A stretch of DNA of 42,109 nucleotides from contig PUKV01000169.1 in NCBI GenBank assembly GCA_003550645.1, positions 1-42,109 of the forward strand, in the 5' to 3' direction. The DNA is from Syntrophomonadaceae bacterium. GTDB taxonomy: Bacteria; Bacillota; Dethiobacteria; DTU022. The notes under the pieces were generated by a model that worked only from the letters and a program-made list of their open reading frames with translations, was not told where the DNA came from and searched no databases. Every line of letters starts with the position of its first letter. The first letter of the stretch is position 1. Below are positions 6,786-7,551 of the stretch, one piece after another. Both the position numbers and the translations under genes were made by a program.

Positions 6786-7074
6786 GCTGATGCCTCCTTA
6801 TCATTAATAGGGTTTTTCCATAAGTCTTATTCGCTAATTAATCCATTTTCCCTTTTTTTATAGCATATTTTTTATTAAATTGCATTCCCGGTAAGCGGTC
6901 TATAATTATAACTGTCAAACCTGCTTAGCCCGAAATGATTATGCTTGATATCAGGTTATAGCTTATAGTTACGGTTTAGTCAACCCTGAAACTAAAAGAG
7001 AGTTCTACCTCAATTTACGTGCCATCTTTGTTCCCATAAAAAGGGTTTATATTATGGTTACTCACCGCGAAAAA

Positions 7075-7137
7075 TGTGGATAATGCGATCTTGAAACGGT
7101 TATATCGGCATAAATCTGTGGATAACTTTGTGGATAC
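7075..7137. promoter_or_regulatory. Cluster of DnaA-box-like 9-mers (two exact, one 8/9)
   Basis: TGTGGATAA (complement TTATCCACA) at 7075-7083 and 7117-7125; TGTGGATAC at 7129-7137; all in the same orientation. Confidence 0.5.
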
Positions 7138-7301
7138 TGTTAACAGAACGGGCATTTGCCTTTTAAAAAGGTTGATTTGATGGCCTTTTAAGATCGAAAA
7201 TCTTTTATTAGTTAACATAATGTTATTTGCATAACTAGTTAACCTTACTATTAAACTGTGAAAAAAAGAACCCTGGCTTTTATTATTTGCACATTTTTAA
7301 C

Positions 7302-7343
7302 TTGTCAATAACAAGCAGTTGTGTTATTAATATTATTAATAAC
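7302..7343 (+). promoter_or_regulatory. Putative sigma-A promoter (TTGTCA-N17-TATTAA) overlapped by a 21-bp palindrome
   Basis: -35 at 7302-7307, -10 at 7325-7330; GTTATTAATATTATTAATAAC at 7323-7343 is a perfect palindrome around one central base. Confidence 0.5.
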
Positions 7344-7360
7344 TAAACGGGGGTGTTCCG

Positions 7361-7444
7361 GTGAGCCTTTATAGAGTGGTGTTAATTGCCGTAACTGCTT
7401 TAAGTTTGCTGTTGTTAATTGGGTGTAATACCGGTGGAGGCTGA
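7361..7444 (+). CDS. 27-aa lipoprotein-like small ORF (MSLYRVVLIAVTALSLLLLIGCNTGGG)
   Basis: GTG start after G-rich RBS-like acgggggtg; hydrophobic signal sequence with lipobox LLIGC; own promoter and terminator signals; not in the supplied ORF track. Confidence 0.5.
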   Translation: MSLYRVVLIAVTALSLLLLIGCNTGGG

Positions 7445-7497
7445 TAGGGTTTTATGATAAGAGCCGGTCGGCTCTAAAATAACTGGCAATAAAGAAT

Positions 7498-7551
7498 AAG
7501 CATCCGCTGTATGCCTTTGATCTTAACAGGGCATAACAGGGATGCTTTTTT
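7498..7551 (+). terminator. Rho-independent terminator downstream of the 27-aa ORF
   Basis: Nested stems AAGCATCC/GGATGCTT and TATGCC/GGCATA, followed by TTTTTT. Confidence 0.6.

Follow-up and report, generated by a model that had tools for sequence, protein, structure and literature searches.

The stretch of DNA analysed here, called the window, is the contig PUKV01000169.1 of a Syntrophomonadaceae bacterium, with a length of 42,109 nucleotides. In it, the minus strand encodes a ferredoxin and an M24 peptidase whose genes are separated by a gap of 790 nt, and this gap contains a small unit at positions 7302-7551. The first-pass annotation had described a transcription unit complete in itself, with a lipoprotein-like micropeptide as its product and a possible operator, and this description is borne out: all the elements it named, that is, promoter, palindrome, ORF with a lipobox, hairpin and terminator, are found at 7302-7551, and the unit is backed by conservation in relatives. 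Its features, read in part in a way argued for below, are as follows.

7302-7331, plus strand: sigma-A type promoter, with TTGTCA at 7302-7307, a 17-bp spacer and an extended -10 element TTGTG-T-TATTAAT (TATTAAT from 7325)
7323-7343, no strand: operator-like dyad GTTATTAATATTATTAATAAC, which spans the -10 element and the expected start site
7349-7355, plus strand: Shine-Dalgarno-like GGGGGTG, seen in the sequence, with GG-GGTG kept in the alignment
7361-7447, plus strand: proposed selenopeptide ORF (V/M)SLYRVVLIAVTALSLLLLIG-C-NTGGG-U-stop, 28 residues with TGA read as U; homologues in 31 genomes
7412-7426, plus strand: end of the lipobox, LLIG-C, with the Cys codon TGT at 7424-7426; predicted lipidation and signal peptidase II (SPase II) site
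7442-7444, plus strand: UGA codon, proposed to be read as selenocysteine (Sec, U); TGA in 31/31
7445-7447, plus strand: TAG directly after the UGA, the proposed true stop; TAA/TAG in 30/31 and TGA in 1/31
7460-7475, plus strand: SECIS-like hairpin AGAGCC-GGTC-GGCTCT, loop 21 nt after the UGA
7498-7551, plus strand: intrinsic terminator AAGCATCC...GGATGCTTTTTT, seen by folding

Relatives were searched with DNA, protein, profile and pattern queries, at first in 60 genomes and then in all 98 genomes of the class. The gene is present in 31 genomes of the class, and 28 of these, belonging to one family, hold the same peptide in the same gap between the ferredoxin and M24 peptidase genes, where frame, lipobox Cys, promoter, dyad and hairpin all recur. 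Profile matches with E below 2e-7 (1.4e-4 in one genome, G018) are all short frames at this locus. Weaker matches, whether from the class or from the 399 phylum genomes searched, mostly fall on the signal peptides of frames that are far longer. The relatives are mostly metagenome-assembled genomes (MAGs) labelled Syntrophomonadaceae or Bacillota, which are incomplete, and many bear isolate names of the soda-lake sediment type, which suggests a soda-lake origin.

The promoter predicted before, TTGTCA-N17-TATTAA, is present and conserved: the alignment of 26 anchored genomes gives the consensus TTGCNA, 17 bp, TRTGN-TATTAAT, with TTGC of the -35 element kept in 22-26/26 per position and TRTGN and TATTAAT in 23-26/26. 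The 21-bp palindrome reported over the -10 element is also there, perfect except for the centre base and without a second copy in its own genome at up to three mismatches. The earlier view of it needs a correction in that its best conserved half is the left one, i.e., the -10 element itself; the right half, ATTAATAA, is kept too (20-26/26 per position), as expected for an operator. The dyad is thus a possible operator for a repressor, and in a search of its own genome for a regulon, the other sites were only weak matches at chance level. Furthermore, the intrinsic terminator at 7498-7551, which a simple terminator scan did not list, was confirmed by folding; most relatives keep its fold but not its sequence, and it lies 3' of the SECIS-like hairpin as a separate structure. 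The predicted transcript is about 210 nt, and in the window there is no gene downstream for the unit to control, the unit being closed by its own terminator.

Other conserved non-coding blocks lie upstream of the unit. A cluster of DnaA boxes is found at 7075-7137 (and also in L050, L094-L097, L099 and L101), with TGTGGATAA at 7075 and 7117 and TGTGNATA at 7129; the two copies of TGTGGATAA are exactly 42 bp apart in most relatives, and the block is highly conserved (to about 7165), unique in the genome and ancestral to the family. This cluster is not part of the unit, for sister genera have it but lack the peptide, and one genome (G027) has the peptide without the cluster. Nor is it oriC: dnaA lies on another contig beside an rpmH-type sequence, and the GC skew keeps its sign at the locus in the window and in the relative G001. 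It is possibly a DnaA titration or regulatory site. On its 3' side, the block GTTNACATAA...CATAAT (7210-7235) is kept in sister genera without the peptide, and two more conserved blocks, TCAATTTACGTGCCATCTTT and TTATGGTTAC, lie upstream of the DnaA boxes at 7010-7062. In addition, an asparagine-synthetase-like gene (about 620 aa by eye) adjoins the M24 peptidase gene in sister genera (L050, L094-L099, L101 and L102), whereas the window's own clade lacks it at that position.

The ORF at 7361-7444, previously unlisted, starts with GTG and reads V/M-SLYRVVLIAVTALSLLLLIGCNTGGG. Conservation of the frame and lipobox in relatives, with dN/dS on the alignment, had been named as the check on this 27-aa frame, and both speak for it: the lipobox Cys is invariant in 31/31 genomes, and seven independent species pairs give pS of about 0.40 versus pN of about 0.14, with dN/dS below 1. 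The ORF is therefore a real gene, and the alignments indicate purifying selection on its peptide, including the lipobox Cys and the residues between Cys and UGA. The residue before the Cys is Gly in nearly all members and Ala otherwise, a hydrophobic core is found in all, and the signal peptide with the pattern [LVI][ASTVI][GAS]C is that of an SPase II substrate; lspA is present in the same genome (PF01252, E 1.2e-40). Between the Cys and the TGA there are two to six small residues such as NTGGG, VPGGG, TSGG, SSGG and NGG. The peptide matches no NCBIfam or Pfam model above cut-off, and a remnant of a longer lipoprotein is ruled out, the clade having short frames only and the tandem stops being invariant.

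The conserved parts of the peptide bear on an earlier suggestion that a signalling peptide is processed from the LSLLLLIG segment, by analogy with the enterococcal pheromones cAD1 and cCF10. The hydrophobic residues before the lipobox do resemble the segment from which such pheromones come (PMC7117660), and an oligopeptide ABC transporter is encoded 4-7 kb away. However, this segment varies between close relatives, as it does in any lipoprotein signal peptide, and what is invariant, namely the Cys, the tail of small residues, TGA-TAR and the hairpin, follows after it. No linked receptor is found among the annotated neighbours, and a pheromone would leave the UGA-TAR end and the SECIS-like hairpin unexplained. 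The proposal thus found no positive support, and a pheromone origin is extremely improbable. The enterococcal precursors (CcfA and others) share with the peptide a lipoprotein signal peptide processed at the lipobox, but they are full-length lipoproteins without UGA or SECIS (PMC7117660).

The end of the frame is its most peculiar part. In 31/31 genomes, which are related and so do not amount to 31 independent events, the frame reaches a TGA with a second stop immediately behind it (TAA/TAG in 30, TGA in one). An in-frame UGA stands at one conserved position with another end of the frame after it, as in selenoproteins. For comparison, among 294 well-supported genes of the relative G017, TGA ends 67 (23%) and tandem stops occur in 16 (about 4-5%). 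Cys homologues at the Sec position are the classical proof and usual support of a selenoprotein, although they are not an obligatory feature; no Cys-for-Sec homologue was noticed among the profile matches in the 98 class and 399 phylum genomes.

The hairpin AGAGCC-GGTC-GGCTCT at 7460-7475, noted before without its role as a candidate SECIS, is present and conserved. Its loop is GGTC or GGTNN (AGT in two), and the distance from TGA to the loop is 16-23 nt across genomes. All six stem pairs have compensatory changes, with 30 double-changed cells versus 8 expected; the stem positions are 98.3% paired, none of 500 shuffles is as good on pairing and double changes, and sliding the hairpin partner destroys the covariation signal. 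Elsewhere in the same genome the hairpin occurs at chance level, equal to a pattern control. Known bacterial SECIS elements include those of the formate dehydrogenases of E. coli and Moorella. With bSECIS elements the window hairpin shares a small loop starting with G-G/U, a stem of 4-16 bp and a position 16-37 nt after the UGA; it differs in lying wholly 3' of the true stop codon, where it is free of coding constraint and so can covary freely. The bSECIS model requires a loop of 3-9 nt, a stem of 4-16 bp, G in the first two loop positions, a spacing of 16-37 nt from the UGA and a minimum free energy of -7.5 kcal/mol or lower (PMC13188914). The window hairpin (loop GGTC, 6 bp, 21 nt, -8.7) agrees with this model, and so do 27 of the 31 hairpins as scripted and a 28th, that of G031, which failed because the script picked another fold, the real hairpin having -10.3; the other three fall short on energy alone. 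As a background, 11/150 long frames ending in TGA in G017 pass the model, and 1/225 both pass it and have a tandem stop.

An ordinary micro-lipoprotein, in which TGA is the stop, the second stop insures against readthrough and the hairpin protects the 3' end of the mRNA or aids termination, would account for the conserved peptide, lipobox and terminator, and tandem stops and 3' hairpins do occur in general. It leaves unexplained, however, that TGA and the stop next to it are each found in 31/31, that the spacing is fixed at 16-23 nt, that a hairpin separate from the terminator has an invariant loop G-T and that the SECIS model is matched in Sec-decoding genomes; it is hence decidedly unlikely. 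The other alternative raised before, a regulatory RNA, either dual-function or purely regulatory, draws on the predicted transcript with its conserved hairpin and terminator and on the palindromic promoter. The hairpin is indeed an RNA element, but it is placed as a SECIS and would act on the peptide's own UGA; the coding signature in pS versus pN also argues against an RNA alone, and the unit matches no family in Rfam. Such an RNA is very improbable.

The Sec machinery is found in G017, a genome of the same family that carries the peptide and is 99% complete (about 1.30 Mb read). Its selA, selB and selD lie side by side, all with NCBIfam scores above cut-off, and it has a tRNA-Sec (ARAGORN; Rfam RF01852, 70 bits).

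L274:8750-13259, G017: selA-selB-selD cluster
L269:7486-7579, G017: tRNA-Sec gene

The selD gene of G017 is itself interrupted by a TGA in frame (TSAG-U-AAK), and a hairpin GCGCAGGTACTGCGC with a loop of the AGGTACT type comes after it. In the window's own genome, which is fragmentary and 78% complete, no sel gene was found in about 240 kb, and a search of the DNA covered for conserved genes with an in-frame UGA gave antisense-frame noise only.

Members outside the main locus were sought over the class with R1, a covariance model of the lipobox end, UGA-TAR and hairpin. Besides the loci already known, it found two untrained members in another family, in G093 (a complete genome) and G094, with E of about 1e-10 to 5e-12. 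Their peptides are MKNKVSYLMISLILTGLMLLLSGCGGSG-U and MKNKLLYLSLLLLASLFILLNGCSGGG-U, respectively, both ending in TGA-TAA and followed by a long hairpin GGGAGC-TGGTTCA-GCTCCC. The neighbours differ from those of the main locus, the peptide gene lying directly downstream of an ArsC/Spx-like gene.

L220:1030-1383, plus strand: ArsC/Spx-like UxxC gene with an in-frame TGA; a matching gene is in L223

This gene is regarded as a selenoprotein gene because its N-terminus, ...FYCFPA-U-(K/R)TCQKAKAW, makes sense only with TGA as Sec. Its match to NF041106, "ArsC family (seleno)protein", is below cut-off, and the hairpins behind the UxxC genes of G093 and G094 miss the bSECIS energy limit only. It is likely truncated in automatic annotation. 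The encoded UxxC protein is a cytosolic thioredoxin-fold protein without sequence relation to the peptide, and the neighbourhood suggests, weakly, a link of the peptide with thioredoxin-fold selenoproteins. In addition, a divergent member, MRKILLPVLFALAAALFVLLSGCSP-U, occurs in the sister genus g17 beside an asparagine-synthetase-like gene, with a hairpin GGAAGTT-GGTC-AACTTCC (31.4 bits); it counts less since R1 had been trained on it and the wide search did not return it.

These two copies downstream of a selenoprotein gene, together with the covarying SECIS-like hairpin and the short transcript, might also fit a selenium sensor or SelB decoy, in which UGA and SECIS are read and the behaviour of the ribosome or SelB on the RNA matters, not the peptide. 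Yet the unit in the window ends in its own terminator with nothing downstream to control, and the selection on the lipobox Cys and on the residues from it to the UGA points to the peptide; a sensor or decoy is unlikely.

Therefore the locus is read as a selenoprotein gene, in which UGA 7442-7444 encodes Sec and TAG 7445-7447 is the real stop; judged from the sequences compared, a probability of about 0.88 is given to this reading. It is drawn from the TGA followed by a stop in 31/31 related genomes against 23% TGA stops and about 4-5% tandem stops in G017, from the covarying hairpin, the bSECIS match and the Sec machinery in G017, and from the members found by R1 in G093 and G094, the purifying selection on the peptide and lspA in the same genome. 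The peptide would thus be a selenoprotein by mechanism, on the UGA context and SECIS, with Sec insertion and lipidation both predicted. As to the earlier claims, the ORF proposed to end at TGA 7442-7444 very probably ends at TAG instead, and the lipobox LLIGC stands, with a mature part that very probably has seven residues, not six, Sec being the last.

Under the selenoprotein reading, transcription would start shortly after 7331, a repressor may act at the dyad, and expression of the lipopeptide would be regulated. Translation would yield a 28-residue prolipoprotein: the hairpin would recruit SelB with Sec-tRNA-Sec, Sec would be inserted at the UGA and translation would end at the next codon. 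SPase II would then cut before the lipidated Cys 22, and the heptapeptide Cys-Asn-Thr-Gly-Gly-Gly-Sec would stay anchored by its diacylglyceryl group to the outside of the membrane. The strong nucleophilicity of selenols (PMC13188914) suggests a membrane-tethered redox or scavenging role; most likely the peptide would serve as a tethered selenol, either for redox reactions or to trap electrophiles or metals.

Sec at the C-terminus is not new in itself. In KCU-star (NF033934) and SaoC "Cys-Cys-COOH" (NF040734), as in the peptide, the UGA is near the end of a short ORF, the SECIS is just downstream and Sec is at or next to the C-terminus (PMC13188914, Table 1), but in the peptide the whole mature product would have 4-8 residues including the lipidated Cys. 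LptM, entericidin and colicin lysis proteins also have a signal peptide and lipobox and gave weak matches below cut-off; they have longer mature parts with their own motifs and lack Sec. The 2026 selenoprotein catalogue describes no lipoprotein among its 119 families (PMC13188914, Table 1), and the term "selenolipoprotein" was not found in the literature searched. The peptide is probably a ribosomally made "selenolipid", i.e., a peptide with 4-8 residues and a lipid anchor in which the C-terminal Sec is the sole reactive group. It would then act as an extracytoplasmic membrane selenol in two anaerobic Bacillota families, would rank with the smallest selenoproteins that are genetically encoded and would be the first micro-lipoprotein among them.

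A gene of 28 codons whose last sense codon is UGA would have been missed, since searches for bacterial selenoproteins seek UGA inside recognisable ORFs or Cys/Sec pairs. If the reading is true, the peptide ranks among the smallest selenoproteins yet proposed, and its lipid link and selenium tip make it unusual; with it, membrane lipopeptides that end in a selenol would enter, as a new class, a catalogue made up nearly wholly of thioredoxin-like proteins and metalloenzymes, and more selenopeptides may hide as small ORFs that end in TGA-TAR plus a hairpin. It would also raise a chemical question, namely, what use haloalkaline anaerobes make of a selenol outside the membrane.
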